A stretch of 64,000 nucleotides of DNA, taken from Scatophagus argus (lineage: Eukaryota > Chordata > Actinopteri > Scatophagidae). The translations under genes were made by a program, and so were the position numbers. The number at the start of each line of letters is the position of its first letter. Positions within the stretch are counted from its first letter, which is position 1. The stretch spans positions 13,055,501-13,119,500 of the forward strand of contig NC_058501.1 of assembly GCF_020382885.2 (NCBI RefSeq), written 5' to 3'. The notes beneath the pieces are model-generated. The model made no database searches, was not told the origin of the DNA, and was given only the letters and a program-made list of their open reading frames with translations. Shown here in pieces: positions 20,340 through 61,936 of this stretch.

Positions 20340-20888
20340 TTTATTTGAGGGACTCAGTATTAAGACACATGTCTTCATTAGTGAATTCAGGTGTGGTATG
20401 GGGCTGTTTTTCAGGGGTTGGGCTGGGACCCTTACTTCCAGTGAAGGGAAATCTTAATGCTTCAGCATACCAAGACATTTCGGTCAATGCTAAGCTTCCA
20501 ACTTTGTGCCAACAGGTTTGGGGAAGACTCTTATCTATTCCAGCATGACTGTGCTTCAGTGCACAAAGCAGAGTCCATAAAGACATGGTTGGATGAGTTT
20601 GGTGTGGAAGAACTTGACTGGCCCACACAGAGTCCTGACCTCAAGCTCATCAAACACCTTTGGGATGAACTGGAACAGAGACTGTGAGCCAGGTCTTTTC
20701 ATCCAACATCAGTGTCTGACCTCACAAATGTTCTACTGCATGATCGGGCAAAAATCCTCCCAGACTCCAAAATCTTGTGGAAAACCATCAAAACTGTGAT
20801 AGCTGCAAAGCTGTCTGTGTATTTAGAATGTGATGCCATTAAAGTTCCCTGTTAGTGTAATGGTCAGGGGTCCTAACACTTATCTATA
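20340..20888 (+). mobile_element. Degenerate Tc1/mariner-type element, copy 2
   Basis: Most readable copy of the family. The DDE region is recognisable in pieces: [29 protein letters not shown] and HLWDELEQRL. It is split over frames and lacks a full terminal repeat at the left; the right edge is a worn form of the end seen in copy 1. No intact transposase can be read. Confidence 0.75.
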
Positions 20889-33179: not shown

Positions 33180-34462
33180 TGGCTACCATGACAACAGAGG
33201 CAAGTGCAGTGAGTGAGGCAGACACCGAGGGCAAGCAGAAGGCCAGCGGCGCTGAGCCTGAACCCGATCCAGAGAAAAAGAAGAAGCCAGAGGCGTCCTC
33301 GTCTGAGCTGGAGGGAGAGCAGTCGAGCAAGAAGGCCCAGGAGCAGACCTCTGAGGCTGGACCCGCTGACGTAGCCACCTCCCCTGAGGAGGAGCAGCTG
33401 AAGCCTCGTACCAGGACTTCTGCTGGCAAAGGCCTGTCTCGCCTCTTCTCATCTTTCCTCAAACGCCGCTCACAGTGCTCCGAGGGAGAGGGCTTTGAGG
33501 CAGAGAAAGCCCGGGAGGAAAAGGCAGACAAAGAGGAAAAAGCTGACAAAACAGAGGAGAAGGAGGAAGAGGTGAAGAGTGAAGAGAAAGAAGCTAAAGT
33601 GGAGGAGGAAACACCTGAGGTAAAAGAAGTGAAAAAGAAAGAAGAAAAGGTAGAAGAAAAAGAGGATATAAAGAAGGAGGAAGAAAAAGTTGAGAAGAAG
33701 GGCAGTAAAAAGAAAAAGAAAGAAGCCAAGAAGAAAGCAGAGAAAAAAGATGAGGAAAAACTGAAACAAGACGAGGAGACGAAGGAAGAGGAAAACTTGA
33801 AAAAGAAAGAGGAGCAAAAGGAGGAGGAAAAAGCACAGCAGACTGTAGAAAAGGTGGAGGAAAAATCAGAAACAAAAGAAGAAGCAAAGAAGGAGACCAT
33901 TGAAGTTAAAGACAAGGAAGCAGAAGCCGGACAGAAAGAGAGTAAAGAGGAGGAGAACACTGACAAGAAGGTTACAAAGAAAAAAGAAAAGGAGGAAAAG
34001 TTAAAGAAGAAGGAAGAAGAAAAAGCAAAGAGGAAAGCAGAAGAAGAAGAAAGGGTAAAGAAGAGAGAGGAAGAAAAGGCAAAGAAGAAAGAGGAAGAAA
34101 AGGCAAGAGAGACTGAAAAAGCAAAAAAGAAAGAAGAGGAAAAGGCCAAGAAGAAGGAGGAGGAGAAAGCAAAAGACGAGAAGACAAAAAAGAAAGAAGA
34201 AGAGAAGGCAAAAGAAGAGGTGAAGAAGAAAGAGAAAGAAAAGGAGGAGGAAAAGACAGAAGAAAAGAAAAAGAGGGAAGAGGAGAAAGGAAAGAAAAAA
34301 GAAAAGGGGAAGAACAAAGGAAAGAAAGAGGAGAAGGAGGTGAAAGGGCCAAGTGAGGAGCAGGTGAAAGCACCAATTGCTGCTCCGGAGCCCGAGCTTA
34401 AAACTGAACCAGACGTTGAACAAGCTCCTGATCAGCACTCGATAAGCAGCGCTGAGACTCAG
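33180..34462 (+). other. epb41: epb41 first coding exon with a long Lys/Glu-rich block
   Basis: 1283-nt exon. It begins with the family start MTTE and, at 33436-33470, the 4.1R signature [12 protein letters not shown]. From about 33500 to 34350 the reading frame is almost only Lys, Glu and Ala in KKKEEEKAK-type units. After this block the 4.1R sequence resumes at [12 protein letters not shown] and ends in SSAETQ at the donor. In human 4.1R these two signatures are separated by only a short acidic linker. The block has the alternating-charge character of a stable single alpha helix. Long Phe/Ser-rich or Leu-rich frames on the other strand are its mirror image. Confidence 0.85.
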
Positions 34463-37400
34463 GTGAGTGTGGCGCTGACTAAGAGTATACTTACAGTACT
34501 ATACGAGTACTGCATGTTGGGATATCGCCATGTTTGTTTTCATGCTGAAAGTTAGATGAGGGTATTGATACCACTCTCATATCTGATCATCTGTACAGCC
34601 AGCAGCCACTTAGCTTAGATTAGCATAAAGGCTGGACGCAGGGAGAAACAGCTTGCAAAATCCACCTAGCAGCATCTTTAAAGCTCTTTAACCAACATGC
34701 CTGCCTATCTTCTTGTCTAACCTGAGGCAAGAAAGCACATTTCTCATTATATCAAATTTTTACTTTAATCATTTGTGTGTGAGGATTCAAAACAGAGGAA
34801 ACATTTTAACAAAAATCTCACACTCAAGGGGAGGCTGTCTGATGAATCTAGATAGAGATCAATTCTTTTCAGGTGATTCATTGAGATCGTGGTGGGTTAT
34901 CAATGTTCTCTTACTTCAGTCTTCAAACTTCATGCCTTGCTTTACCTCTTTGTGTGAATATGACCTGGATGACTGAGAATCTCCACAGATATCCCTCATG
35001 CAAATGCACTGATTGTAGTGATACCTCTCTAGTTTAGTGTAGGTCTACTTGTGCTGTTGTTTTGTAAAAGCTTATAGGTGCCATTGGATGGTGCAGTGTC
35101 ATTCCGTACCACGTTGGTTTTGATCATTTTGATTGGCTACAAAACAAACTTATTGCGCTCTTTTGTGCAACTTTGTCAGACATCCTGCTGCCAAAGAAAG
35201 TCCACAGAGCAGATATGTACAGTGAGGGGCGAGCCAATGTGTGTCCACAGCTCACTCTGGTGTGACACCGGTGGTCGAAGGAGAACTAAAGGAAAAAGCA
35301 AGATGAGCAGATTATAACACAAACATGGTGACAAAAGAAATAACCTGCTAGAAATGTCAAAATTGATTTAAAAAAAAAAAAAAGTTAGCAATTCAGATTG
35401 TGGATCGTGATTAAGATTCAATAGACTGTGACAGTTTTTTTCCCCCAAAATCATCCACCGCTGTCTCACACAGTTTCTGATAAAATTCAGAAACAGAGCT
35501 CTTCTGTATAGAAATTCATGCTGCAGATTTGACTGTAGTAGAGGAACACATGTTTTTTTTTTATGTCTAATGAATTTTTTATGATATGGACAGCTTGCTC
35601 AGCGAAAGTAACTGTGCTGCTTTGAGCTGACAGCTTGGTCTGAAACAAAAGTGATTCCTGCTGCTCTGAACTAGAGCTAACGTCAACAGCAGTATATTTG
35701 CTTTTTACAGAGTTGTCTTAATTATAGCTTTGAGTTTGACATATTTTCCAAATGTCTTGACTCTATCAGCCACCTCAGGAGGAACAGAAGGAAGAAACTG
35801 AGATTAAGAAGGAGCCTGAAGTTTTGGCAGAAGTGAAGGAGGACCCAGAGAAAAAAGAGGAGAAATCAACAGAACAGGAGAAAGGAGGCAAAGGAGAGGA
35901 GAAAGCAAAGGAGGAGGCGAAGAAGGAGAAGCCTGGGAAAGAAAAGAAGACCGAAAAGAAAGCAGAAGAGGCTAAGGGCTCCAAACGTCAGAAAACCATG
36001 CAGTGTAAAGTCACCTTACTGGATGACACTCAGTTTGAGTGTGAGCTTGATGTAAGAGACCTCCCAGAATGACGGCATGTATTGCTTGTCCATGCTAAAG
36101 ATTAGACTGGTGAAGACTGATGAGTGTCTCTCTTGCTGCATCTGTGTGTCCTCTTTCTGATGTAGAAACATGCCAAAGGCCAGGAACTCCTAACGAAGGT
36201 GTGTGACCATGTCAATCTGCTGGAGAGAGATTACTTTGGCCTGGCTCACTGGGAAACACCAACCAGTAAGGTAAGCTGTGTGTGCTTATGGTTTCTCTGC
36301 AAAAGCATATCCAGATATTTTACATGACACCAACAAGAACCTGGTTGTGAGCAGCCGGTTATTTGTTTTCCCTCCATTTTCCACAGACATGGTTGGAAGC
36401 CACCAAAGAGATCCGGAAACAGGTTCCAGGTGCTGTCTATGAGTTTACATTCAATGTGAAGTTTTACCCTCCTGATCCAGCACAGCTTACTGAAGACCTC
36501 ACCAGGTGAATGGCTCAAGTATTAAAGGAATAGTTTGACTTCTGGTGAAATCTGCTGATTGACAGAGTTACACTATGTAGACAAAAGTATTGGGACCAAT
36601 ACACCAACAGGGACTTTAATGGCATCACATTCTAAATACACGGACAGCTTTGCAGCTATAACAACTTCCACTCTTCTTGGAAGGCTTTCCACAAAAATTT
36701 TTTTCTGTGGGAATTTTTGCCCATTCATACAGTAGAGCATTTATGAGGTCAGGCACTGATGTTGGATGAAAAGGCCTGGCTCAAAGTCTCTGTTCCAGTT
36801 CATCTCAAAGGAGTTTGATGGGGTTGAGGTCAGGACTCTGTGTGGGCCAGTCAAGTTCTTCCACACCAAACTCATCCAACCATGTCTTTATGGACTTTGC
36901 TTTGTGCACTGGGGCACAGTCATGCTGGAATAGAAAAGGGCCTTCCCCACACAAAGCACAAAGTTGGAAGCATAGCATTGTCCAAAATGTTGAGAAGTAA
37001 GGGGCCCAGCCCAACCATTAAAAGCAGCCCGATAGAGGTGTGTCTGGGTACTTTTGTCTGTGTATACTAAGCTAAGCTGGATCTTTTCCAGCCTCTCAGA
37101 TAATTTTCTGAGAAGTATATTTTCAAAAGTGTTGTCACTGCAGTCATTACATCTCATGAAAAACAGTTTATATAGTTTTTATATCTTTGTTAATAAGTTA
37201 ATTTTTTCCTTTCATATCTTTTTTAGGTACTTTCTATGTCTCCAGCTGAGGAAAGACATAATGCGTGGTGTTCTTCCCTGTTCCTTTGTCACGCTGTCCC
37301 TGCTCGGCTCCTACATAGCCCAGTCAGAGCTTGGAGAGTATGACCCAGAGGTCCACGGAACAGACTATGTTAAGGATCTGAGCCTGGCCCCCGGACAGAG

Positions 37401-40400
37401 CAAAGAGCTGGAGGAAAAGGTGATGGAGCTGCATCGCACATACAGGTAATCAAAGTGAATGGGCTTTGACTGGCACAAGGTAGTGATGGCATCTTTAGTT
37501 AACACATACTTTTTGGGTAAGCATATATTTTAAAAAGACAAACTGTGAAAGATATCTGCAACTTCAACAGCTGTTGAAATTGGTGATTTTACAAGTCCTT
37601 TAAAATAATCCTGATGGTAAAACATAGTTTTGAAATGTATTTTCTTATCTGTGTTCTTCCAGGTCAATGAGCCCAGCCCAAGCAGACATGTTGTTTCTGG
37701 AAAATGCCAAGAAACTCGCTATGTATGGGGTTGACCTGCACCAAGCCAAGGTAGGGTTTCATTTCAGTTGTTAGCTATTTACATGAGTTTTTTGCAGCTT
37801 AATTAATACCACAGATTTTTCATAGTAATTCTAAAATGCTAAAAGTCCATAGTACATGTGTTGACTTTCCTTCATTTTAAAATTGCGTGTCGCTGTTTTT
37901 TAGGGACATGTTTGTATTACATCAGTACCAACCAGAATTTAATTACAAAATTGATGTCCCCCCCCCCAGAAAAAAGGAGAGATTAATAACATTTCAAACT
38001 CAATGACCTCAAAATCCATGTCCTCATAGTGTGAGAAAGTCTGCCTCCCAGTGACTGCTTATTGTAAGCGCAGGGTCACAGTGATTGTGTGTATTGGCAC
38101 GGTGTCATAACTGTTTATCACGCTATTTTTGTGCATGCAGGATCTCGATGGTGTCGACATTACACTGGGAGTTTGCTCCAGTGGCCTGATGGTTTACAAG
38201 GACAAGCTGAGGATCAACCGTTTCCCTTGGCCCAAAGTACTCAAGATCTCTTACAAACGCAGCAGCTTCTTTATCAAAATCAGAGCATCAGAGGTAAATC
38301 TGAATTTACACGTCCTATCTTCCCACCACATCCCAACCACATATCTCTTCCACCTACATTTTTTACTAAATCACAACCCCACCTGTCTGATACCTTACTT
38401 ACTGATTATGCCAGCTGACTTATCAGTTAGCTATAAATTACCTGTTGGGTGTACTCATGGACTTATTTCACCAGAGCCATTCCTTGGATTTATTTTAAGT
38501 TTTTATATTGAATTTACCACAGTAGTGTTATGCTCATAGTGTTATTTTGGGATAATAAAACCATAGTTGTATATTATGTTATTTTAAATTGGTTAGTGTT
38601 AAGGCTGTATGTAATGTAATGTACACCAGTATTATTTTCAGCTCTACACTTAGAACCTGGGTTTATCAATTATATTTGATCTTTTATGTCTTTCTTCACT
38701 CACAGCAAGAGCAGTATGAAAGCACAATTGGCTTTAAACTGCCCCACTACAAAGCCTCGAAGAAGCTGTGGAAAGTTTGTGTTGAACACCATACCTTCTT
38801 CAGGTAAGACCAGATCCTTCTCACCTTATTCTGAATGACACTTCCCTGCCTGGTAACAGAGGTCATTCTCGGGTCCTCCCTATCCCCTACATAATTGGCT
38901 CACTGGTCTCTGCAGCTTAAGCCCTATAGTGGCTCCCTAACAGTCAAATCACAGTTTAACCACAGAGGATAAAGGTCAAAGTTGTTGCTAATCTTGTTGC
39001 ATAACAGCGACTCCTGGTATGGGTTCTGTTACTTTGATGAATGAAGGATGGATCAAAATTAACTCAATGTTTTTCTCCCCCAGGGTTCCAACAGTAGATC
39101 CTCCATCATCACGTCGCTTTCTTGTCTTGGGCTCCAAGTTCCGGTACAGCGGGCGGACTCAGGCCCAGACCCGCCAGGCCAGCTCTATGATAGACCGTCC
39201 AGCTCCTCGCTTCACACGCTCTGCGAGCAAGAGGCTGTCCCGTAACCTAGATGGAGGTATGTGCAAGTGTGTGAATCCGTGGAAACTTTACATCGCGCGT
39301 GAATCTCATGATAAAAGCGCAGGTTTGGTAAGCTACTCTCTGACCTGTCTCGCTCTTGCAGCTGGAGATGAAACTCTCCAGTTGTCCAGTTCAACCAGGT
39401 CTGAGGTCGATGAATGGTCGCAGATGCTGACATCTGACAAACCCCAGCCTTCTCCCGAATTTCCAGGTACCAGGAGCTGTGTAGAGATGTGCCAGCACTT
39501 TATAGCATATATGCGGCAACTTGTGTTATTCTCCCTCAAACAGCTTTAACACGTCATTTAACATTCGTTTAACAACGTTCATCCACTCTTGCTCATTTGC
39601 TTTTCATGCCAGTAAGCCTTGGAAAAGATTGCCGATTGCTAACTTGTCAGAGCGCTGACCTCCCCTGACATGTGGGTAATGTCACCCACCTTTTACTTTC
39701 CCTGGCATGATCCCAGGGCATCTCTGGTCTTTGTGCAGCCTGACAGAAAATTTAAAGCTTTTCTTCTCATGGTTATCTACACACAGGCATTTCCAGCTTT
39801 GACGCTGCTATTTCTCAGTGTTGGGCATTTTCAGAAGTTGCCTTTTGATGTGTGTTGCACAGTAGCCTCCATTTGCTTGCAACTTGCACCTTTTTATGCT
39901 CAACATCTTAACAGACTCACTCATCACTGTTCAAGTCGATCTTTAAAACGGGATAACGCTGGAACTTTGAACACTGAAAATGTAATCTCCACGTGTGCCC
40001 TTTTTATCTGTCCTTGTTGTTGTTGGATGATGAGTGGCATTTTTCAGTGAGCTTCTTACTAACCTCAGCTTACTGGACTCACAATTGTCTGGTACAAATG
40101 CTTGGCATCTGGCTTTGTTCAAAAACACGCTTGAAGCACTGTCACGGTGGCAGTCATCTCTCCAGCCGAACCATTACATAACTGCCATCCCGTCATCATC
40201 TCTTCGCAGCCAGAGGGGTGTCTGAGCAGACTTCCATTCAGTCCTGGGAGGAGGAGCAGTCTGTTTGGCAGGATTCTGAGTCTGGGCAGACTGGCTCTCA
40301 AACCATCACCCAGACAGTCAGTCAGCCATGGCAGGAAATGGCATCAACAGATGAGCAACAGCAGAGGAGAAAGGAAGACGAGTGGCCAATTTTGCTCCAT

Positions 40401-43400
40401 CGTTATCCTCCTTTTCCCTTTGTCCCGTCATTTGATTTTGTGAAACAGCCAGGTATTCAAACTCCCAGTGCGTGCCAACAGTTATTTAGCACTTTGGCAC
40501 AAGGAAAACTGAACACACAGTCTTTTAATCTTTCACTTTTTCTTTTGGATTTTAAAGAGCATCTAAATGTAAATGTATTCCAGCCAGCATGCACTTAAAG
40601 AATGATACCACTACATGTATACTGTATTATCCGCAGCGGTTTCAACCACCTGTTTTCGAGCATTTTGCAGTTTGATTTTTGTGGTTATGAAATTGTTCAT
40701 TATTGTTTCTCTGATCATGTCAGCTAAGGTCAGCTTGACAAAAATGAGCTCTATGGACAGACTATTGCAACCCGCACTGACACAGCAAGATGACTGGTAC
40801 CTTTACTTTGACCAAATCTCCAGCCTGTCCTTGTTTGAGCGAGCTGACAAACCATGTGAGTTTCTTTGTGTGGAAATATGAGTTGCAATTTGAATACTGT
40901 CATTACTAAAATGCTTTAACAGCCTCATATATAAATCAAATTTCAGTTACTTTCGTGGCTCATTATTTTACTTTCCCCTTTACTCCCCACAGTCTCTCTC
41001 AGAGCTGAGTTCCAGGTCAAGCAGGAGGATGAGCAGGGCATGTATGTGGCAGAGCAGGAACTGACCAGTGAGGAGGTCATTGGTAGGACGCAGGAAGGCA
41101 TGATCTCGGTAGACAAGCTGACAGAGAGGGAGCTTTTGGAAAAGAGGCTGAGAGACGTGAGGGATTTAGAGGAAATTCTCCAAGAAGTGGATGAGATGGC
41201 AGAGAGACTTCAAGAAGTAATAGAAGAGGAATTGGGTGAGGAAGAAGTTGCTAAGTTGAGAGCAGAAGAGGGAGATTTAACAAGAAAAGTATTAAAGAAA
41301 TCAGTGAGCAGAACAGAGACAAGAGAGGGAGAAGTGGATGAACTAGAAGAGGAGATAAAGCGGGTGTTTTTAAAAGGCTTGTTGCCTGAAGAGGAAGAGC
41401 TCAAGGTGAGGCAGGAGAGTGAACAAGAGGTGACAGGTGAGAGTCTGTTAGATGACAGCTTGAGAGAGAATCCAAGGCAGGTAGAAAAGGAATGGCAAAA
41501 TGAGGTGGAGAAGTCTGGCTCTTCAGAATTTGCTAATACCACGTCTGTAGTAGCATACCAGAAGGTGGAGCGTAGGACTAAGAAGAGAGTGACTATTGTA
41601 GAAGAGACAGGGCAGAGTCAGGAAGAAATGGATGGTGTACAGGTACCGGAGAGACTAGAAAAACAGGGGACATGGCGTAAGATAGAAATACAGGAGGAGG
41701 TAACTGAGAGAGAAGTTGCAGAGAGGCTTCAGCCTGAGGATCCGTCTCAGGTGGCAGACGAGGACGACTGGTTCATGCTTTTTGACCGCCCTCTGTACAA
41801 AGATGTTTTCAAACCACCAGGTACCGTTTGTAATTGTGCAAACAGTTTTATCTCAGATACACTCCAATATTCTCCTGTAATACTTATGTGTGCATTGTTT
41901 TACATAAGCAGTTTAACTGTTACACTTGAAGTGTTGAATTGTGTCTCTAAAACCCTCTTCAGATTCAATAGAAAGTTAATGGAGAAGTTTACAGGTTGGC
42001 TTCTCCTTTTGATTCCTCGTCCCTTTCTCCCTTAAATATTGTTTGACGTTTATGAAAGAGCTGGATGTGTTGACTGTAGTTCTGGGTTATGCTCAGGTGG
42101 ATGCAGTGTAGTGAAAGTAATGACAGTATAGCAGGCACATGGTCATTGTGGATGTCCTAATGGTACAACAAATTGTTGTCTGTTACTCAGATCATATATA
42201 CAAATATTATTCTTAGAGAGCTAGAACACCAAAATTAACATATTAATTATATTAACTAGTTCTTTGTTTTGCTGAAATTGTGCATGCAAGTTGCTACAAT
42301 GAGGTGTGTGAGATGTTGTGTAAGATTGTGCAGTCTTATTCATCTACAGTAATGTCTGTACCTTAAAAATTATGTCTTGCAACTGTAACCCTGTTCAAAG
42401 ATTCGGCTGTGTTTTTACTGTCATCATTAGTTACCACTGTGGAGCGTGCTCAGGTGGATGAAGGCGAATATTACACCTCAGTGACTGAGATTACAACTGC
42501 TGAGAACAAAACAGAGATTATAATAGAAGAACGACAAATAAGAGAAGAGGAAACGTGCCGTATACCAGAGATCCCGCCACCACAGACCATTACAGAAAGA
42601 GAGGGTGACTGGTTTGTGTTACTGGATGCTGTTCCCAGAGAAACTCCATATGTACCACTATGTACGGCACAAATCCCCTGTCCTGCTATTCACTCTCTTG
42701 TGCTTTGTTTTATGATTATTTTTTTGCCATAGGAAGTGTGTTACTGCTTGAGTTAAAAGACTTTCTCCTGTCTTCGCTCACTTCAGTTACGATGGAGGAA
42801 AGAAACACGATGGATGCAGAAAGTTTTGTCTCTGTGGTTGGAACTGCAGTCAGTGAGGAGATTAGAGAAGAAGTAGCTGAAGAGGGGAAGATAATAGAGG
42901 AGGTGCCAAGACGTTTCAAAGAAATCCCACAACAGCCAGTGACAGACAAAGATGATGACTGGTTTGTGTTGCTGGATGTTGCTCCCAGGGAAACCTCATT
43001 CGTACCACCAGGTACTGCTAATATCGCCTGCACTGTTTCACAGCTTTATCAAAGCAAGCAAGTAATTATCCTGAGCTTTGCAGACACTCTTATACTTGAA
43101 TCCCCTGTAGTGCTCGTGGTGTCTGAGGATTTTTTTTTCTTTATATCTCTTTTGTCTCAGTTGCTTTTGCACAGGGTGTTGAAGTGTCTCCAGAAGAACA
43201 TGTCGCTCTGGTTGAAGTGACAACCGTTGAGCGCAGAGAAGAAGCAGTGGAGGTTGTGGTAGAAGACACAGATATGAAACAAGTGCAGAGTGAACAGAAA
43301 GTAGATGTTCTGCCACAGGGTGTGAGAGAGATAGAAGATGACTGGTTTGTCCTGCTGGATGTTTCCCCTAGAGAACCGTCATTTGTGCCACCAGGTATGC

Positions 43401-46400
43401 TTGCCTCCAGTCCTTAAAAGCTTATTTTGTCATTTTTGGCTTAAGTGTCTTACAATACTCGTTCACTCTGTTTGTCATTAGTTACCACGGATGAGTACGT
43501 TCAGGTTTATCCTGGAGAAAGCATTTCTGCTCTGGTGGAAACAATATCAGTAGAGTCCAGAAAGGAGGTCGTAGTTGACGAGACTGTGATGCAGAAAGAG
43601 GACAAGAAGCTTCCCGCACAAATTATACCAGAGCAGAAAATATCTCCGCCAGTCAGAGAAAGAGATGATGACTGGTTTCTTCTGCTGGATGTTATTTCCA
43701 GAGAAGCTCCCTATGTTCCTCCAGGTACACACAGCCTTCAAATGTCTTTTCTTTTCACACATATTCTCACACTAAAGAAGATGGGTGGTAAGCAAACTAT
43801 TCAATTTCGACGATTTCTGTTGTTAAATTCAGATTCTTCAGTTATGGCTGAAGCTTGAGCTTAAGTTCTGATGATTTTCAGTTTCTCTGGCCGAACCGAG
43901 TCAGATGTATCCCAGTGTGCAACCTGGAAGTGAAGTGATAAGCATAGAGCAGAAGTTGCAGCAGGTTGATCTTGACCAGAAGCCTTCCCAGCCACTGCCA
44001 CAGAGAGATGATGACTGGTTCGTGCTGTTCGACGCCATCCGTGAAAAGCCTGTTGTCGTACCACCAGGTACCTGTGATAGCCAAAGGGTCTGTTCAGTTG
44101 AGTGATGGCAAATAAACTGGACTGCACCTGATGCTTTTTCCTTTGCTTTAAACCTAAAGTAGCTCTAGCAAAATAAAATCTGAAATGAATGTGCATCCGA
44201 TTTATTTACCCTTATCTTTCCACATTAGTCGCTGTGGTTGAGCGTATTGTGGATGTCATAGCTGCTGCTGAACCAAAACCAAAACCTGTCATGGACCTGA
44301 GGCCACCTGTTAAATTGGTAGAGGTCACGGTACCATATCCCAGACAGGTGGATGATGACTGGTTTGTGCTGCTAGATGTGGCAGCAAAAACACCAGGTAT
44401 TGAATCACACAAAATAATAAGGTGTCTGTTATATTTATTTCACCTTGTTCAGTATATCTTTAAATGGAATGTTGTTCTGGCTCAGAAGGCTTTCTTTGTA
44501 TCCTGCATTAGTGGCTGTGGACGAACGTGTTCGTGTACAACCTGATGTTCGACCAGCTAAAGAATTTGCAGCCACAGAGCCGAGAGCACAACAGAGAATT
44601 ATTATAGAGGAGGAGACGTGGCAGCAGGAGCAGGTGGTACAGCAGAGACCACGTCCCACAGTAAGGGAGGTGCAGGATGATTGGTTTATTCTTCTGGATG
44701 TGGCCACTAAGAAATCAGGTATAGTCAAAATGGTTTAGTCCAGCTGTGCATCCAAAAAATTCTACTTGGGTTTGTTTCACTGTGCACAATTATTATTTTA
44801 CATTTAATCTACCCCCCATAATATGTGCATCTGTTTTGCTATTTCACTGTTTAAATATATCCTCATATTTTGTCATCTATTTCCACAATAATACCTGGTT
44901 GTATATTTCTATTAGTCACTGTCCCTGAGCGCATCCAGTACCCAGCAGAGGTGAGAGCTCCAGCTGCTGTGGCCAAAACAAGGATTGCTGTTTCTGAGAC
45001 GAGACCACAATTTGAGAAATGGATCATGGAGGAAAGACCTCCACACACGCATACACATGTCAATGATGATTGGTTTGTTCTACTAGATGTTGGCTTCAAA
45101 GAGTCAGGTATTTTTTTGTTTGTTTGTTTCTTGTTCGGGTTGGCTGTTTTGCATACAAACAACTCACAGGAGGATGCGTTTTCTTTGCTTCGTAAGACGC
45201 TTATTAACATTTGCAGCGTGTTGACAGGATGCATCAGCTTTTGTCCACGGATGGCAGCGAACATTCATCATTATTCAGCTACCCTCTTACCGTGCTGCGT
45301 TTCACAAACTGAAGAAACATCGCTCTCTTAATGCCAGCATTTTACTTCTTCAACCATGTAAAGCTTCCACTTAGAGCTCCTTGCAGCCTAACATCATCCA
45401 ATCGCAACAAGAACTAATCCACGCTTTTGCTCATTCCACTTTGTGGATATTCGCTTCTTGCCCACTTCAGATCCTTATCCTTTTAGAAGAGACTAAACAA
45501 AACATATCAGGTACAGTATGCCCCTGCAGAGCGTGTGCTTTTCTGATCACGTCAAGGCTTGAGACTGTAAGTATGATGTGGCCGTTTGCGTAGATGCGTT
45601 ATTATTGTTATTGCATTTATATGTTTATATTCGAGATACGATCTTAACCCTGCATAACACATTCCCTTAAAACACGCTTTCTTTACACTTTGTCTGTATT
45701 TCTTCCAGTGGTGAGCACACAGCGTGGCACCCGTCCCGTCAGTGCTCCAGTCTTCTCCCAGGCTGCTCTGGCGGAGGCAGGGATCCCTATGGCGCCTTTC
45801 GATCAGCCCCAGACCTCCACCCCAATCAAGACTGGCCACAAGGAGGAGAGAAGGCTGGAAGTCACCGTAGAAGCTGTGGAGCCCTCTAAAATTGAGCCTG
45901 AGGCCGAGGACAAGGTATTGTGACATAATTTCAGGAAAATTCTTCAAGTTTTTTTGTGCAGGAATAATGTAGCATCATATAGAATGTAAACCATACATCC
46001 CTTAGAGGATATCCGGTGCCAGTGAAAGATTATTTATAATGTGTCCTCATAGTGATTGCCTCTGTGAATTCATAGTAGATAATGTTAACTTTTTTAAAAA
46101 AAAAAATTCATTTTAATGTAATTGTTTCATAATCTTTAAGAATTAGAGGTGTTAAAGTAGTGAGCAGAGATTGTTCTCTGTGTCTGAGTGTGAACTCTGT
46201 CTCTCTTGCTGCTGTAGCCAGCAGTGTGGAGGGACCAGAGCCATGTACACTCTACACTGATATCCACCATCAATGGGGACATTCAGGTTAGTGTCAGACA
46301 CTGGGGGGAGAAGAGTTGTTTCCACTATGTTCAGATGTGGGTGTTAAAGCCATCAGGCAGAGGATGCTAACACGTGTCCATCTCTCCTCCCTGGGGTAGC

Positions 46401-49400
46401 ACGAGTCTGAGGCGATGAGCACGGAGGTGGTGCGAATGCGAAAGGTCAGATCCTCAGCCCGGTATACGTTCCCGTAGCCATTTCTCCACCTCCATTCTGC
46501 TGATATCGAGCTTTCTCATCCAAAAGACTAATTTCACCCTCTTCTCATGTTGTGCTTCCATACAGCTAGGTCTTAAATGAAATCCACATCAGGTTCGATG
46601 CACATACAATATATTGTATGTAAAAATAGATGATATATGTAAACGTTTAATAGAGGAGTATCACTTCAATATGAGGAGACTATGCTTGCCTTACAGTATG
46701 ATTTTGCAAATATTATCAAAGGTTATAAAAGACATTCATTTCTTCTCATTGCTTGCTGTGGTTGTAAACCCTTGAATGCACACACGCATGACTATAGATT
46801 AAATTAACTTTACTAGAAAGTAGCATGATAACTGTTGTTTTATCACATCTGTCACTCCACCATTCTTTGTGGTTTTTTTCTCATTACTGAAATAGGAAAC
46901 TTAATAATAGGAGACTTATGTTGTTTGCTTTGTTAATACATTTTGCATGCAGACTCCTCACAGCTCTCTCTGTTGTATTCGTAGTGAATTTTGTTGTATG
47001 CATGTCCAAGGTGTGGCAGTTAAATGCCAGCACATGGGGAAACTGAAACAAACCCACACTCTTTTTGTTCTTTTCATCCTTCACAGAAAAGAGCTAAGAA
47101 AATTGAGGGTGACTCAATTTATATCAGACATAGCCTTTTAATGTTGGAGGTTTGTATCCCTTCCGGAGATGTCAGTCTCTGTCTGTATTTTCTTGCTCTT
47201 TGGCACAACGGCTGCGGTTTTAATCTCACGCTTGCATGTGGCATGATTCACACTCTTTGCATCAGCACAAATGTTTGGCTGTAGATCACATGGTAAGTGT
47301 TTGTGTATGTGTGGCCGTGTAACTCTAATTCGGATGTTTCAGGAGAGTGCTGTTGAGCTTAGAACAAATATGTGTCAGGTTATGGTAAGGTTATTTTACT
47401 TGTATTGGTTTAGACCAACTTAAAAAAATGCCAGACTCCATACTGTCCTCAAACTGTCCCTAATGGTCTACCCTGCAGTTCCGCTGATGAGCTAACGTTT
47501 AGACCAATGAGGGACAGACGAAGCTTTTCTACGTTCTTCAAGTCGGGATTCACAAGCAGCTTCATTTTTAGATGATAGTCAATTTTTTTTCCAGATCATC
47601 AGTATTCTCCTGTTTCTGCTTTTGCTTTTTCTGCCTCGGTTTCATTTTCTAACTTGCCAGTAATGCATTGCACCTCCTCAGCAGTTATGCAAATGAAATC
47701 TTGTGATCATAGAAATAAAAACCAAAATAATTACATGTCGTTGCTGCTGTTCATGAAAGGAGGGACGTTTGGAGAAACACTTATCATTAAGTTGCTCTTT
47801 AGCACCACAACACTTCTAGATCCTTGTCTGCCGTGTGTTAAATGGGCATAGCAGCAAAGATCAACTTGGTGCTAACTGTTGCCAAATAAGTCCTGCTGCT
47901 GTTGCTTTTGTTCATTTTATGTTAAATGAACGGGTTTCCATTTGTACTGAGGCTTCATCTTTGACAACTTGCTACCATGTCTGCTGTCATCACCTTTCCT
48001 GCTGTTTGATTTGCAGCCTGTGTTCACGACTTGTGTCAATCCAAGCCTAATGCTATGAAACGGATCGTTAATGCTGTGCTGTATGGTTTATAGCTCCCAT
48101 CCATCTAAACTCCAAATGATAATCATCTTTGATAAATCACGCCAATGACTCCTCCGAATCTTTTCCTTTAGAAACCAAGGTGTGCCCTCATGATCCAACT
48201 TTTCATTTGGAAAAGGAATCCCTGATAATCTATGAAGAATCCCAGTAGTATGATTATCTAGATTAATGCTCCCCCTAATTTATGTTCTTTTAGAATCACC
48301 AGTTAACCCCCGCTTTTGCTTGTTTATCTAATCTGCAGTAGATAATAAACAAATTGTGCATAAACAACAAATAGAAAGATAACCTAATGAATTTTTTTTC
48401 TTTATTCTGTCTTTTGTTTATCTCTCCCAACTGCAAACATTTCCTCCATCTTCCCTTCCCCTCCCCAACTTTCACCATCTTATCCTCACATTTTATTTTT
48501 CCTTCCCTTATTGTTTTCTTGATTCACTTCCCTCTGTCAAATTTCCCGGCACCCTCTTCCTGCACCGATCTGCCCTCCGCACTCTCTCTTCCCCTCTCGA
48601 CTTTCCTCTGTATAGGAGTTCGACAAGCCCAATGAGGACTTGCTCAAGCACCATGCCAGTATCAGTGCGCTCAAGAGGAACTTCATGGAAGCTGTGCCAG
48701 AGCAGAGGCCCAGCGAGTGGGACAAGCGCCTGTCCACGCACTCCCCGTTCCGCACTTTGGGAATCAATGGTCAGCCTCTGCCCAGTGCAGATGGGGTAAG
48801 TCTCTCACAGGAACCACACGGCATCATGTCCTTTTGAGTTGATTTTTAAGTCCTGTCATTTCAGGAATTGGTGCAGTTCAATCAGAAACATTCATTTAAA
48901 TTAGAGTCGGTCATGAAGATTCAACGATTCCTGAATTGATGTGGTAAAGCTGTATTTGTACATATGCCATCACATGCTTTCCTTGGCTCCTTTCTGAGGT
49001 TACTGCACTTGACTGCAAAACATCACTGCTGCAGTGTGAGCAGTGTGCATGGGTTTGTTATGCAACGGAAGAACCTGACATTCTTGTCTGAAAGTCTCGT
49101 GTTTGGGTCATTTTTAAAAGTTAATGTGACTTTGAACATTGAATTGCTACACTCAAATGAAAGAAATTGATAGAACAGGGTATCAGGCTCTTCCTGGGTT
49201 CTCCTACAGTTAAAATATAATGGATGGTGAGTGCATGTACAGACCTATTCAAGGCAATGGCCTGTGCCATGCAACACATGCATGTGTATGAAGAATGCAG
49301 CTTGACTCGCTGAACAGGGTCTGTACCTTTGGTTGTTTGTTTTAAAATACTGACGTGTGGAGAGACATCTGTGGGACAGGTTGTCCACCCTCTGAGAACT

Positions 49401-52400
49401 CACTTTGGTTCGTCTTTGCTGCATTGGATGCCTCAGAACCCTGACATGTTGGTATTGCATGACTGATAGACCTGACGTTGAACGTTTACTGCATGACTCA
49501 GCGATGGCCCTTTGATGAATTTTTGCACGTCTTGACACTGAGCAGAAGTGACCTTTTCCCGTCTCCTCTGTCCCTCCTTGATGAATGAGCTTTCTTCCTT
49601 CTTCTATTACGCTTTGCACACTGTCTCCTTCATTCTGCTTTACTATGTTTTGGTTGGCTTCATTCACAGTTGTATGAGCAACCCTACTCTCACTATAGTA
49701 GATAACAACATAACAATCACAGGATTTCAGTATAAAACTAGTATACTAGTACTGGCATCACTAGCTGTAATTAAAAATATTACATCAAAGTTATTCAGTG
49801 CACTAGAAACACAACTCCAATTTAGTCCAGCTGCTGTCATGTGAGCAATATAATGTACAGATTTTTATTTTGATGCAATGATACTGCAACATAACACTTG
49901 GACATAAATACCTGCAGTACATTATATTGTCAGGATGAATTAGAGTTGCACTGAAGTCAAAGCAAAGCAAAACTGACAGCTCAGAGTTTGTAGTGAGGAG
50001 ACAAAACAGAACATGTGCAAAATGTTTGATGTATGCTCTCAACAATATGCTACTGGTCAAAAGTTGTCTGTCTAGTGGAGTGGGCACACTTCATTTTACT
50101 AGCCAATTTCTTAAAAAAATACAAACAAATGAAACAAATAAAGTAAGGCCTCTCCTGCCTCCACTAGTGTGCCGCAGAAGCAGAGTCGATCCTGTTAGTG
50201 CCAGTGGACTAAAAGGACGAGGCTAATGAGAAATAAGCTGCAGTTTATTGCCCAGAAGATACCAGCCATGGCCTTTAAGCTGCTGATATTGTGAGCCGCT
50301 GTCACAGCTTCTGGTTCAGCTTCTGATTAGAGTTCATAGCTTTGTTGGCATTCAGCAGCCTCCAGTTAGATCTGATCCCAGTTACCGCTCAGACACGACG
50401 CTGTACTGGGTAGTTAGCAGGACATGAAGCTCGAGGCCCAATGTGACTCTTATATAGTTATACTTATATAGTTCAGTGTGAAAAAAAGAATAAAATTCAT
50501 CCTTTTTTTGACAAGACACTACAAGTGTAGATGATGACATGTTGGACATGGAAAAATGCATGTTAAAATGCATGTGCTGCTAATGTTTCCATGCTCTGGA
50601 CAACAAACCTTAGCATCAAAATCAGATTTCTGTTCAAATGAAGGCTTTCACCGTGCTATCGCATCTGAATTTTAGATCTTCAATAATCAGTTCAGTTCAT
50701 TTTCGGCCATTGCAAACATTTCAAAAATTCCTCCCTCTCATCTCTCTTCCCCCCTCCTCCTCCTCCTCCTCCTCTCCCTCCCTCCCCCTCAGTTTGTCAT
50801 CCGCCTCCCCCGTGGCCCCCTGCTAGACTTCTACTCCAAACGCAGCTGAGGGGCCATCTCGACCCTGCGGAAACCCCACACAGGTGTGAGTGTGAGCCGT
50901 GGAGACCGCACCTAGTCCATCTACTGTAGTCATCAGCCTCTAGCTTTCTCTTCTCCTCCTCTCCTTCCTTCGCCTCTTCTCCAGCATCACTGTAGCATTC
51001 TTCATCCCTCATCCTCTGCTCCACTTGAGAAGCAGCTCCTTTCTTTTTTTCTGGCCTCTGTGGAAACAAGACTTCCGTTTCTCCTTTTTCCCACTGCAGC
51101 ACATTTGACCTGGTTTCTCCAGCCAGAAACAGACCTGTTCTCCAAAGACTGATTAAGACTGGAAATGACAATCAACCTCAGTACTTTTATGCATTTTCTC
51201 TGATGTTTTTTGGACTTTAAATCAACCAGTCCCCCAGTATTAATGAACAACTGACTTTTATCTGAAGGTTTTTGATCCTGTCACTTTGAGCCTGGTTTTA
51301 TACACAATTTGAGGTACATTTATATTGTCGGTTGTCTAAGATTATTGTCTTTGGATGAGCTGATCACTGTGATGTGATTTTTACAGAACCTTTTTTTTTT
51401 CTCGAACCCACATGAAATAAGCACTAGAAAACAGCAGTCTTGTCACTGTGAACTTTAACATTCTATGTCACAATAGTATTTCCTGTGATAGGGGACCTTG
51501 AGGCAGCTTAAATGTAGTTCTTATTAACCTCTTTGCCCTTCACCAGTATTTTGCAAGGCAGTATGTAGCAACTGCAGGAGATTCCTTGTTGCATGACTTC
51601 TTGACAATCAGTTTTGACCAAAGAATAAAAGACATTCCATATACAGTTTGTATGATTGTTCCTTTCAAGGATCCTGGATTTTATCATTTTAGTTTCATAT
51701 TATTCTTATACTTGATGGCTGTCGATCAGAGGTAGTATGAGTGGCATATTCCATTCTTCCAGCCCTGGAAATCAAAAAACAAAAAATAATCAAGCCAAAA
51801 AAAATAAAAGTATCTGTATTCAGTATCTTTCTTACTGTTGCACGAGCCAGTCAGGACACGGTTAAATTGTGGCCATGAAGGAATGTTCTGCCATAATATT
51901 TTGTTTGTGGCATTAAAACAGCGTTTGTCTGGTCACATAAATACAAGCCATAAAATGTCACCATCTTCCCACAGAGCTGTTGTACCTCATAAAATGGATA
52001 CTCTGCATGCATGCATTACTACAGTATGAAACTAACTTACTCTACATACATGTCAGCAGGCTAGACTTGACCTCTCATGATTACATAGTGACTGTGTTGT
52101 GTCTTTTTTAGAATGTGTGCACTAGTCCCCTTTGCAAGGGTTCAGAAGCAAAGGCTGCACAAAAGGAAACCAGCAGCAATTTGGGCATGTCAGGAAAACC
52201 AAGTCCTGCTGTGAGCCACAAGAGTGAGCCCGATAGTGTCGAAGTCCACGATGCATGTGCTCCAGTTCAGGAAGAGGCGTGTGATCAGGAAGAGCTTGTA
52301 GTATTTGAGACCTCCCGGGTGCCCATCGTAGAGGTGGAGATGGCGCAGCTGCCGCCCTCACTCGACCCCTGCTGTAGAGCTTTAGATGAGACCCTGCAGG

Positions 52401-54180
52401 AGGAAGGATCGTGTCCTGAGGTGTCGGAGTGCTCTGGGAAGATAGTTGGATCTTCCCCAGCTTCCTATTTCAGAAGCGATGGTCCACAGGTCATACGCTG
52501 CTTCCAGGTAGCCTCCTGACACCCTCAGGGTGATGCAGACTCTCTCTCTCTCTCTGTCCCTGCTTGGCCTCTGTGTGATTTCAAGGCTGCCACACTTGCT
52601 CACTCCTTTGCAGCACCCATTGCAAATCATAGTGTGAATCTGTAGCGGTAACAGGACCTTATTTGGTACAGTGTGAATTAAGCTTGTCATATTTAAATGT
52701 AAATGAGGTTGCTGCAGAGGTGTTGCACAGTGCTGTTCACAGCTATGGTGACGGGTTACTGTAACACTAGCATTTTTCTCCACTACAAAAAGTTCTGTCA
52801 AAGTCTTCTGACTTTGACTTTCACTATGTTTTCAATCCTGTTATGGCTTGATATTTATCATTTCTTTTGTAACATTTGGTGGTGGGAAGGGAAGCAACAA
52901 GGTGATTCTGTTGTTTCCAAAAAATCATAATTGAAACAAATTTGTTGAGAAGAAAGGATTGTTGTGGTGAAAATCAGTCCATACCGGTCGTGGCTTACAA
53001 TGAAATGCATGGTGTGAAACAAACTGGTTGCTGTGAGGTGCCAAGTGTCTGGTTAAACAGCCGTTCATGGGGCTATGCTCCCATCCACAGCCCCCTCTGG
53101 TGCAGACCCAGACGGTCACCATCACAGCTGCTTCCAATTCCTTACCCACTGGCATCTCCACCACAGAGGTCCCTGTCGTCCCAACCAAGACCTTCATCTA
53201 TAAGGCTTCAAAGGTAGGGGGCTCCCAGCACCTGCTCAGCCCAGATCTGTGTCGGCCATAGGTAGTCAGCAGTTTGCATGGTGAGAGGTATCAGCACTGT
53301 AGAGCAAGCAGGTCTGGGAGGACCAGGCCAGGGGCTCCAGGAGGAGCATGAGGAAGCACTGCCCCTTCCCTGGCTGAAGCTCAGGGTCATTTTATCTAAA
53401 ATACTTATTATTCACTCCACCATTTTTTTTGGTCTTTTTTTTCTCAGGTGACAGATGACAGAACAGACGACAAGGATGTCACAGCTGTGTCCAGCTCCAA
53501 GACTGTTACCTCAGAGACCGCTAGTGGCACCACAGTCACCACCACTACCACTCACATCTCAAAGGCCAGTACCATCTTACTTTTAGTTCATGTCATTTTG
53601 ATTTTATTTGCCTGTCAACTTTGTTTTCTTCCCTCTAACAGGTAGTGAAAAGTGGGTCTTCAGAGACTCGTGTGGAAAAGAGAATCGTCATAACTGCGGA
53701 CTCTGACATTGACCAAGAGAAGGTACGAATCCTCTGCCTGTGACACATCAATAAACAGAATCCACAAGGATTAGTTCAACATTTGTGAAAATACCTTCTA
53801 GCTTCTTCACCTTCTTGCTGAAGCGTTAGGCAAGACAATAGATACCACTCTCATATCTGTCCTGTAAATATGAAGCGACAGCCGGGAGACAGCCGTCTTA
53901 GCTTAGCGTAAAGACCGAAAAAACTGAGAGATACCGAGCCTGGTTGTGTCGGGAGAAGCAACTTCCTGGAGCCAGCCTCCAGTCTTTATGCTCAACTGTG
54001 AAAGGCTCCATAGTTAAAGAGCAGACATAAGAATGGTTTCAAAGCCAAATATGCTATTTTCCAAAAGTGTTCCATAAGGTATTATCTAACAAAAGCTTAG
54101 GTTAAGTCATCTTAAGACTAATACAAGTACATATACTGTCTTTCTTGCAGGGCAAAGATGGCGGCGCATCAGCTTTGTAA
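33188..54180 (+). CDS. epb41: Protein 4.1R (erythrocyte membrane protein band 4.1), expanded form, about 2271 aa
   Basis: Cytoskeletal adaptor linking membrane proteins to spectrin-actin. Coding exons: 33180-34462 (ATG 33188), 35770-36051, 36166-36270, 36387-36505, 37227-37445, 37663-37750, 38141-38293, 38706-38803, 39084-39256, 39362-39466, then eleven array exons (40210-45107, listed separately), 45709-45914, 46218-46286, 46400-46444, 47087-47149, 48616-48795, 52112-52507, 53091-53213, 53448-53564, 53642-53722, 54151-54180. Phases close to 2272 codons. Identity to 4.1R rather than the 4.1N/G/B paralogs rests on [24 protein letters not shown], the SSAETQ junction, [20 protein letters not shown] and [18 protein letters not shown]. 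Domains: headpiece 1-500, FERM from about 502, FERM-adjacent, array about 873-1835, spectrin-actin-binding core 1943-1963, C-terminal domain from 2156. Odd points: the array, a Lys/Glu block, a short final exon, one GC-AG intron. The ATG was chosen for MTTE, the usual family start, in good Kozak context. Confidence 0.92.
34540..34710 (+). repeat. Dispersed fish repeat fragment (copy a)
   Basis: Contains GTTAGATGAGGGTATTGATA, then CCACTCTCATATCTG and AGCTTAGATTAGCATAAAGG. The same blocks recur at 53756-54050, so this is an interspersed element. I do not name the family. Confidence 0.6.
35998..36000 (+). promoter_or_regulatory. epb41: Conserved internal start codon (AUG-2 equivalent) of epb41
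   Basis: In mammals skipping of upstream exons lets translation start at a downstream AUG just before CKVSLLDD, giving the 80-kDa red-cell form. Here Met502 sits at the same place ([10 protein letters not shown]). This suggests the short, FERM-first isoform can also be made; it would lack the Lys/Glu block. Confidence 0.55.
36166..39256 (+). other. epb41: epb41 FERM and FERM-adjacent exons
   Basis: Eight exons, together with the end of 35770-36051, encode the three-lobed FERM domain: KHAKGQELL, then [12 protein letters not shown] and [14 protein letters not shown], then [26 protein letters not shown]. They are followed by the FERM-adjacent segment with [14 protein letters not shown] and [15 protein letters not shown]. 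Lengths and junctions follow the human gene with no insertions. In the family this part binds band 3, glycophorin C, p55 and calmodulin. Confidence 0.92.
36571..37066 (-). mobile_element. Degenerate Tc1/mariner-type element, copy 3, in an epb41 intron
   Basis: Inverted orientation, between the FERM exons 36387-36505 and 37227-37445. It starts with CACTATGTAGACAAAAGTAT and ends with its worn complement near 37060. On the minus strand the transposase pieces [20 protein letters not shown], then [13 protein letters not shown], can be read. It is internally deleted and not functional. Confidence 0.78.
40210..45107 (+). repeat. epb41: Tandem array of eleven homologous phase 1-1 exons in epb41 (DDWF cassettes)
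   Basis: Exons and core motif: 40210-40452 (DEWPILLH, degenerate), 40724-40855 (DDWYLYFD, degenerate), 40993-41820 (DDWFMLFD), 42431-42661 (GDWFVLLD), 42787-43011 (DDWFVLLD), 43161-43394 (DDWFVLLD), 43482-43724 (DDWFLLLD), 43882-44067 (DDWFVLFD), 44229-44396 (DDWFVLLD), 44512-44718 (DDWFILLD), 44916-45107 (DDWFVLLD). Codon counts: 81, 44, 276, 77, 75, 78, 81, 62, 56, 69, 64. Most units start with V(T/A)(T/V)xER, continue with an acidic, Val/Glu/Pro-rich variable linker, then the motif, then a tail such as [12 protein letters not shown] running into the donor. The last three units have short tails ending KTPG, KKSG and KESG. Introns between units are short (87-610 bases). The array sits between the FERM-adjacent and spectrin-actin-binding regions. 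I know of no such array in mammalian 4.1R. Confidence 0.88.
40993..41820 (+). other. epb41: Largest array exon: 276-codon acidic coiled-coil-like segment plus DDWF motif
   Basis: Same start and end phases and the same closing motif (EDDWFMLFD, then a KPPG tail) as its neighbours, but with about 240 extra codons of Glu/Arg/Lys/Leu-rich sequence (for example [16 protein letters not shown]). It looks like a coiled coil or charged helix. The extra length may come from internal expansion of the linker. Confidence 0.75.
45487..45510 (+). other. epb41: Possible 24-nt microexon of epb41
   Basis: A pyrimidine-rich tract plus TTTTAG acceptor and a CAG|GTACAG donor flank 24 bases that keep phase 1-1 and would add EETKQNISG across the junction. 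Its ending SG resembles the ends of the last array units. It would be the twelfth, eroded unit or a 4.1R microexon. Not needed for the frame. Confidence 0.35.
45709..46444 (+). other. epb41: epb41 exons between the array and the spectrin-actin-binding core
   Basis: 45709-45914 contains [10 protein letters not shown], matching RPTSAPAITQ of human 4.1R. 46218-46286 and 46400-46444 follow, ending VVRMRK, as in the human IRMRK junction. They fix the place of the array: human 4.1R has only a few residues between the FERM-adjacent segment and this point. Confidence 0.85.
47087..47149 (+). other. epb41: epb41 exon 16 equivalent: spectrin-actin-binding core, 63 nt
   Basis: Encodes 21 residues ([10 protein letters not shown], then [11 protein letters not shown]), the same length and register as the mammalian exon 16, which is switched on during red-cell maturation and is needed for high-affinity spectrin-actin binding. 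Flanks are phase 0 on both sides, so skipping keeps the frame. Confidence 0.9.
48616..48795 (+). other. epb41: epb41 exon 17 equivalent
   Basis: 60 codons with [20 protein letters not shown] and [18 protein letters not shown], nearly identical to human 4.1R in this stretch. The donor (GGG|GTAAGT) is in phase 0, which allows splicing either to the terminal exon at 50793 or to the long-form exon at 52112. Confidence 0.9.
50793..51650 (+). other. epb41: Alternative terminal exon of epb41 with its own 3'UTR
   Basis: A strong acceptor (long CT/CCT tract then CTCAG) precedes 18 in-frame codons, [18 protein letters not shown], and TGA at 50847-50849. A 3'UTR follows with AATAAA at 51624-51629. It is phase 0, compatible with exon 48616-48795. 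Using it would produce a 4.1R lacking the C-terminal domain. Mammalian 4.1R also has alternative exons at this place, but I do not recognise this peptide. Confidence 0.6.
52112..52507 (+). other. epb41: epb41 132-codon exon between exon 17 and the C-terminal domain
   Basis: Open in phase 0 from TTTTAG|AAT to CAG|GTAGCC. It is Ser/Glu/Cys-rich (for example [14 protein letters not shown]) with no domain I recognise. The human gene has alternatively spliced exons at this position. The splice sites and uninterrupted frame support it; function unknown. Confidence 0.65.
53565..53641 (+). other. epb41: Probable 77-nt GC-AG intron in epb41
   Basis: The frame and the 4.1 family alignment both require the exon to end at ...ATCTCAAAG and the next to begin at GTAGTGAAAAGT. 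The intron then starts GCCAGT and ends AACAG. A GT donor four bases further in (GCCA|GTACCA) would break the frame of the next exon. Confidence 0.6.
53756..54050 (+). repeat. Dispersed fish repeat (copy b) in the last epb41 intron
   Basis: Shares GATACCACTCTCATATCTG and the AGCTTAGCGTAAAGACC block with 34540-34710. This copy is longer and also has the GTTCAACATTTGTGAAAATA head. Confidence 0.6.
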
Positions 54181-61002: not shown

Positions 61003-61936
61003 AATTCTGAAACTAGGCTAATAATAAATTGGACACTTAAACTTCTCTTAACCCCGATCCTCTTGTGACCCCACTTTGAGTCTCTGCCCTTTATCCTAAT
61101 TACCCAGTATTTACTTACAATTTCAGAATTGCATTTCTTTTTCCCAGCATCATATTCAGGAAGTCATGGTAGCTGATAGTGTCTTTTGCTGAATCTCCAA
61201 CCACCTCTGACATCATCTTTTTCAGCTCTAAGTGAGTCTTGGCCAGTCCGAGTTTTTCCAGCATTCGTTTCAACCCCATTAAATCTAAAAATAAATATAA
61301 GACCAAAGAAAGCAAACAAGTAAAAAGTGGTTATGTCTGTAATCTGAAAGGCAGGCTCTGTTGTGAGTCACGGAAAGTTGCTAATTATAGCAGAAAATAT
61401 TTTAGAGACTCTGTACAATGCAGTTTTACCTATTTCTCCTTTGTCGTTAAGATCAAACTCCATGTATTTCTCTGCAATGCAAGAAAATATTAACTTAGTT
61501 TTGTATGTTTTGCGCACAAAATGATAGGACAATTCGTAAAACAAAACTCACGTTTAAACATTTCCAGTTTTGAGCTGAGATCTTCCTCTTCTGCATACTG
61601 GGGATCTGAGAGAAAAGCCTGAGAAGGAGTGACAATTAAATAATACCAACAAATCAGGCATATTATTGTCATTGCTATCACACAAGCGTCACACAAGTTT
61701 ACGTACGCAGTCCTAGTGAGTAGAAAATGATTCCAAAAGCCACTTTTTTATTGTAACTAAAGATATCAACTCACTTCATTGATAGAATTCAGTCTGTCCT
61801 CCTGATGAGACTTGAGAAGGCCATACTGTTTTCCTCCTGTGAGTAACAAACAACCAACACACAGAAGTCATAATCATGCATAAAATATCAACAAAGCAGA
61901 AAAAAAGGCACACTAACCTTGAACATTTCTGTCCAT
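60584..61936 (-). CDS. aif1: Allograft inflammatory factor 1 (6 exons, 147 aa)
   Basis: Small calcium-binding, actin-bundling protein of macrophages and microglia (IBA1). Exons in transcript order: 61936-61918, 61836-61775, 61618-61552, 61471-61430, 61284-61119, 60671-60584. Phases agree and give 147 residues, the same as human AIF1. Core: [18 protein letters not shown]-hand 1 region [19 protein letters not shown], then EF-hand 2 region [20 protein letters not shown] and a polar tail ending SDLP. The paralog aif1l is similar, so the call leans also on position: in mammals AIF1 and CSNK2B are near neighbours in MHC class III, and here aif1 ends about 0.5 kb upstream of csnk2b on the same strand. 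Confidence 0.92.
60928..61003 (+). repeat. Retroelement 3' end with (TCTA)n tail, copy 3, in an aif1 intron
   Basis: TTTCCCTCGGAATCAATAAA followed by GTA and about twelve TCTA units, the longest of the three tails. Confidence 0.7.

Follow-up and report, generated by a model that had tools for sequence, protein, structure and literature searches.

We consider the gene for protein 4.1R (EPB41, of the red-cell skeleton) on the plus strand of a 64,000-nt stretch of the Scatophagus argus genome (GCF_020382885.2, NC_058501.1:13,055,501-13,119,500, forward strand), which is called the window below. In this copy of 4.1R, according to the gene model, a tandem series of symmetric exons extends the region between the FERM and FERM-adjacent (FA) domains and the spectrin-actin-binding (SAB) domain by up to 963 residues. 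Our preferred reading, to which we give a probability of about 0.45, is that this array encodes an intrinsically disordered string of Atg8-binding motifs of the LC3-interacting region (LIR) or Atg8-interacting motif (AIM) type.

The array consists of 11 exons within 40210-45107, between the FERM/FA and SAB domains, and each of them has an AG acceptor, a GT donor, a length divisible by three and phase 1-1. Read together with one flanking exon on each side, they contain no stop in the coding frame, as compared with 63 and 75 stops in the other two frames. A preliminary description made from the letters of the window had proposed eleven consecutive phase 1-1 exons here, and all of them are found in place, with AG and GT sites and one open frame. 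It had also called the units symmetric, which agrees with the phase of all eleven: because every exon is phase 1-1, skipping any subset leaves the frame intact. The exons, preceded by one further phase 1-1 exon (E0), are as follows.

39362-39466, plus strand: E0, the preceding phase 1-1 exon, a weak candidate for a decayed twelfth unit, with DEWSQML and its W at the start of the last 17 residues; without a profile match
40210-40452, plus strand: E1, relaxed motif EDEWPILL at 40374-40397; without a match to the unit profiles
40724-40855, plus strand: E2, relaxed motif DDWYLYFD at 40789-40812, with Y instead of L/I/V at W+3
40993-41820, plus strand: E3, 828 nt, glutamate-rich, motif DDWFMLFD at 41763-41786
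42431-42661, plus strand: E4, motif GDWFVLLD at 42604-42627
42787-43011, plus strand: E5, motif DDWFVLLD at 42954-42977
43161-43394, plus strand: E6, motif DDWFVLLD at 43337-43360
43482-43724, plus strand: E7, motif DDWFLLLD at 43667-43690
43882-44067, plus strand: E8, motif DDWFVLFD at 44010-44033
44229-44396, plus strand: E9, motif DDWFVLLD at 44354-44377, with a short 12-residue tail from W
44512-44718, plus strand: E10, motif DDWFILLD at 44676-44699
44916-45107, plus strand: E11, motif DDWFVLLD at 45065-45088

Nine of the eleven exons (E3-E11) carry the motif [D/G]DWF[VILM]L[LF]D, with five positions that never vary among them: D(-1), W(0), F(+1), L(+3) and D(+5). The W stands at the start of the last 17 residues in E3-E8 and of the last 12 in E9-E11, a difference in length that divides the units into two sub-types; in E4-E8 the segment that starts at W terminates in VP[P/L]. 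The preliminary description had nine exons closing with the motif. The count is right, while the motif is not literally the end of the exon, the last 17 or 12 residues of which begin with W. The decayed versions that it saw in the first two exons are present as EDEWPILLH (E1) and QDDWYLYFD (E2).

Common descent of E3-E11 is supported by a self-comparison of the DNA, in which each of these exons matches at least one other unit at E 1.3e-4 or better (E3, for example, matches E8 at E 3.5e-5). The profile matches of E4-E11 are at 1.2e-14 or better, against a profile built from E4-E11 themselves. With two unit profiles E2 scores E 1.6 and 3.5, and E1 is absent from the unit-profile matches up to E 20, so that a shared origin of E1 and E2 with the other units is suggested by motif, phase and place alone; E0 is possibly a decayed twelfth unit. 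At least nine of the array exons are thus, on the support of this comparison, duplicates of one another. Could the array be a misassembly, or an artefact of a recent tandem duplication? The possibility is practically negligible, and how far the copies have diverged already refutes it: E4-E11 are only 24-45% identical to one another in protein, so they are separate exons, not one set of reads that was assembled repeatedly.

We turn to the way in which the motif and its linkers have changed. Among E4-E11 the ratio of nonsynonymous to synonymous differences (pN/pS), taken between paralogous units inside one gene and with an uncertain alignment of the linkers, is 0.087 for motif codons, 0.73 for linker codons and 0.90 for randomly paired linker codons. 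All 61 eight-column windows of the linkers have a higher ratio than the motif, and the result is similar when E3 is added. The low ratio in the motif, set against the linkers, means that purifying selection on the protein has preserved the motif, whereas the linkers have drifted with hardly any constraint; judged from these codons, the eight-residue motif is under strong selection within fast-changing linkers. That the duplications are old follows from the synonymous differences, which approach saturation in motif and linkers alike (pS 0.66-0.79). The earlier proposal, that exons were duplicated and the motif was then kept under selection, therefore stands with respect to selection (a pN/pS of about 0.09 versus 0.73) and to the descent of E3-E11, and is weaker for E1 and E2, which are joined to the rest by motif and phase. 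The possibility it had named as damaging, motif codons that evolve as freely as the linkers, is not what this comparison between the units of one gene gives.

The same data bear on whether the exons are relics or are rarely used, seldom or never entering the mRNA. E1, E2 and perhaps E0 do look decayed, but none of the eleven array exons has lost its frame, phase or splice sites, and conservation of the motif as protein goes with nearly saturated synonymous sites; we consider this explanation highly improbable.

What, then, could the motif be? The core of the LIR/AIM is [WFY]xx[LIV], often with acidic residues ahead of it (PMC6499816; PMC7297954), and the residues ahead of the core are usually acidic or phosphorylatable (PMC7297954). 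The W and L(+3) of the fish motif sit at the positions of this core. An acidic residue followed by W-x-x-[LIV] occurs in 10 of the 11 array exons, the exception being E2 with its Y at W+3. In 5,000 shuffles the mean count is 0.92 and the maximum 6, against the 10 observed, although the units are related and the ten are not independent events. Position -1 is D or E in all eleven, and position -2 is acidic in all except E4, which has G. Among LIRs proven by mutagenesis are Ataxin-3 WFNL, ATG4C FVLL and Ankyrin-2 WVIV, and those with F after the aromatic residue include Ataxin-3 WFNL and PML FFDL (PMC7297954).

The predicted structures are compatible with a disordered insert. For the E4 unit (eight sequences), AlphaFold gives a mean per-residue confidence (pLDDT) of 57.8, with 67-72 in the half that holds the motif and no helix or strand listed; for E3 (single sequence), the mean is 54.0; helices are predicted within its residues 44-105, and the surroundings of the motif have low confidence. 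The model of the E4 unit thus has no confident fold. Short conserved motifs in long variable linkers also have, by analogy, the look of multivalent docking strings, and we infer Atg8-family proteins as the partner of the motif.

According to this reading, the insert would be a disordered string of short docking motifs, each acting as a LIR/AIM. An LC3/GABARAP protein would take the W into its first hydrophobic pocket and the L at W+3 into its second, and the acidic residues ahead of W would pair with its basic surface. With the FERM domain at the membrane and the SAB domain on spectrin-actin, about ten successive sites would bring lipidated Atg8 proteins, or the membranes bearing them, to the membrane skeleton and bind them there with high avidity. 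Splicing could adjust how many sites are included, and the symmetry of every exon would keep the frame intact. The full proposal, a splice-adjustable platform of about ten Atg8-binding sites in the fish membrane skeleton, which exon duplication would have built into one of two copies of 4.1R, we put forward more tentatively than the nature of the motif itself.

Several observations weigh against the LIR/AIM reading. The stricter extended (xLIR) pattern is matched by none of the 11 motifs, because these have F (nine), P or Y at W+1, and its two matches in the array lie elsewhere; the extended consensus is predictive, not defining. The simple pattern WxxL is common, being present in 15,460 of 16,609 reviewed viral proteins (PMC5640201). 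The LIR core leaves the invariant F(+1) and D(+5) unexplained. Neither unit nor motif profiles have a match in the PDB, and of the five motif peptides searched there, taken from four units, those other than the E5 peptide match designed TIM barrels or nothing. Binding of 4.1R to LC3 or GABARAP was not found described among the literature matches listed (titles and the starts of abstracts).

The matches that these searches did return were set aside. The E5 motif peptide has two in the PDB, a designed alphaRep (E 0.67) and then a LIR-LC3B fusion (BLM, 9p3e; E 0.88); the latter ranks behind the designed protein and is not counted as LIR evidence. The designed TIM barrels (E 0.002-0.07) are taken as an effect of composition, and one reversed control peptide gave no match. 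In Pfam the array matches no significant family, its two matches being far below the cut-offs (E 0.17 and 2.7). A description of the array itself was likewise not found among the literature matches listed. Patterns for the clathrin box, the KLC W-acidic motif and the AP2 boxes fit none of the 11 motifs, that for the SUMO-interaction motif (SIM) fits one, and two further motif patterns fit none or one.

Alternatively, the motif may serve the multivalent docking of another partner, such as a domain of spectrin, ankyrin, tubulin or a membrane protein, which W, F, L, L and D would all contact. This would account for F(+1) and D(+5), which are as invariant as W and L and go beyond what a LIR core needs, and for the fixed length of the segment that W begins, with its terminal VP[P/L] in E4-E8. 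No other motif class tried fits more than one of the eleven motifs, however, and no candidate partner was found; we judge this alternative somewhat unlikely.

A third possibility, and the alternative that most merits attention, is that the array is mainly a spacer, a splice-adjustable disordered tether that connects the membrane-bound FERM domain to the spectrin-actin junction and tunes the membrane skeleton. The location between FERM/FA and SAB and the almost free change of the linkers are in favor of it, and so is a result from camelids: human 4.1R that was given the 19-residue alpaca exon-14 cassette and a Pro/Glu-rich stretch beside SAB forms the spectrin-actin complex far better, and the stronger complex is proposed to result in a hyperstable skeleton and the rigid oval cells of camelids (PMC9926112). 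Nothing in a pure spacer calls for an eight-residue motif at a pN/pS of 0.09, and as the main explanation we find it quite unlikely. A mechanical action of an insert of up to 963 residues and a function of the conserved motif could both hold.

Mammalian 4.1R with the camelid exon 14 is also one of the closest known systems, as it has the same gene family, the same domain order, and a region between FERM and SAB that is altered by alternatively spliced cassette exons. The scale is different, with eleven exons and 963 residues in the fish and one 19-residue cassette in the alpaca. In alpaca erythroblasts, exons 12-16 give two products, with and without exon 14, and reticulocyte cDNA yields only a 419-bp product (PMC9926112). 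This single reticulocyte product is consistent with the earlier remark that no equivalent of the array is known in mammalian 4.1R.

For the LIR/AIM reading, the long isoform of RTN3 offers a parallel as a membrane-linked protein with many motifs in a long region. Its long N-terminal region has six working LIRs, a number that the authors call unusual, and the short isoform is without that function (PMC5517149). The RTN3 motifs are mutually unlike (FTLL, YSKV, FEVI, WDLV, FEEL, YDIL), whereas those of the fish are near-identical, lie in duplicated exons, and have a binding that is putative. The ankyrin LIR is located in a giant exon. Ankyrin-2 (WVIV) and Ankyrin-3 (WIEF) are membrane-skeleton adaptors with a W-type LIR, as in the fish motif, but have one LIR per protein in the published table, in contrast to the array of fish 4.1R (PMC7297954).

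The next question is whether the motif cluster exists elsewhere in the genome, for which DNA patterns were run over the whole genome and unit profiles over the extracted 4.1 loci. A pattern for DW[FY]x[LF][LF]D gives 21 matches in 571 Mb (reversed-pattern control: 16), of which nine belong to the array; translation of the remaining 12 places every one of them in a frame of 9-70 residues that does not resemble the units. A looser pattern gives 49 matches (control: 61), eight of them in the array. From the 41 outside it, the 22 that were translated are all unlike the array, and 19 were left untranslated. By these patterns the motif cluster is unique in the 571-Mb genome and far exceeds what chance would give.

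The 4.1 C-terminal domain is found at no fewer than seven places on seven contigs, the window included. The closest paralogue, C17, has 92% identity to the window gene over one FERM exon, as compared with 66-71% in the three others that show this exon, and 58% over SAB, as compared with 37-47% in four others; we infer that it is the sister copy from the fish genome duplication. In C17 the next exon after FA, past a 3.4-kb intron, corresponds to the one at 45709 in the window, so the whole array interval is a single intron there. The unit profiles match nothing in the C17 locus up to E 20, the best match of E0-E3 is only at E 0.33, and E0 has no credible match in the C17 gene. The profile comparison thus shows the units to be absent from the closest paralogue, and the array either arose in the window copy or was lost from the sister copy. 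The paralogues C8, C13, C18 and C19, read from FA to SAB, give no unit-profile match better than E 0.77; C3 was left out of this comparison, as the 10 kb upstream of its C-terminal domain showed no FERM or SAB.

The assignment of the gene comes from its domains. Pfam finds FERM_N, FERM_M, FERM_C and FA, then SAB, then the 4.1 C-terminal domain, which places the array between the FERM-adjacent and SAB parts, where it had been put at the outset. The FERM part has the 4.1R FERM domain (1gg3) as its best solved structure at 521.8 bits, with Band 4.1-like 3 at 445 bits, in a ranking of 10 matches at E 1e-50 without any 4.1G or 4.1N chain. The main parts outside the array are these.

33188-34462, plus strand: first coding exon of the 4.1R model, a K/E-rich headpiece; ATG-initiated open frame with a GT donor
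35770-39256, plus strand: exons for FERM_N, FERM_M, FERM_C and FA (Pfam PF09379, PF00373, PF09380, PF08736; PDB 1gg3)
45709-45914, plus strand: exon after the array (TRPVSAP...), whose C17 counterpart comes one intron after the FA exon
48616-48795, plus strand: main SAB exon (Pfam PF04382, 85.8 bits)
53091-53722, plus strand: C-terminal domain exons (Pfam PF05902, exon ends)

The SAB domain starts at the end of the exon 47087-47149. An open stretch behind an AG acceptor at 52112-52505, between SAB and the C-terminal domain, is a possible optional exon. Excluding it, the model has 2,139 residues, and the 963 of the array are 45% of the protein; with the roughly 131 residues of the possible exon added, the share is about 42%, the figure first given. 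Only positions 5-79 of the 107 in the family model of the C-terminal domain are matched by Pfam in the window gene. The last part of the domain is not seen at 53448-54180 in the window copy and is present at C3, C8, C13, C17, C18 and C19. The model ends in GKDGGASAL, and a splice donor after 53564 would need to be GC.

Two very similar non-coding stretches, 20341-20640 and 36828-37070, look like copies of a mobile element, and by eye a similar sequence seems to be present in the C17 intron. Open frames at 61115-61747 on the minus strand, adjoining 4.1R, resemble by eye what we take to be an AIF1-type EF-hand gene.

One 4.1R copy of this fish thus has a large insert, frame-neutral and under selection, in the part of the protein where a small camelid cassette alters spectrin-actin binding, and this bears on how the membrane skeleton diverged between nucleated and mammalian red cells. 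If the motifs do not bind Atg8 proteins, a classic protein with a repeated and conserved W-motif still offers a direct lead to some partner. If they do, the membrane skeleton would be linked directly, and at an adjustable dose, to autophagy or vesicle traffic, and the plasma-membrane skeleton would be coupled directly to LC3/GABARAP membranes, with more LIRs than the six of long RTN3 (RTN3L).

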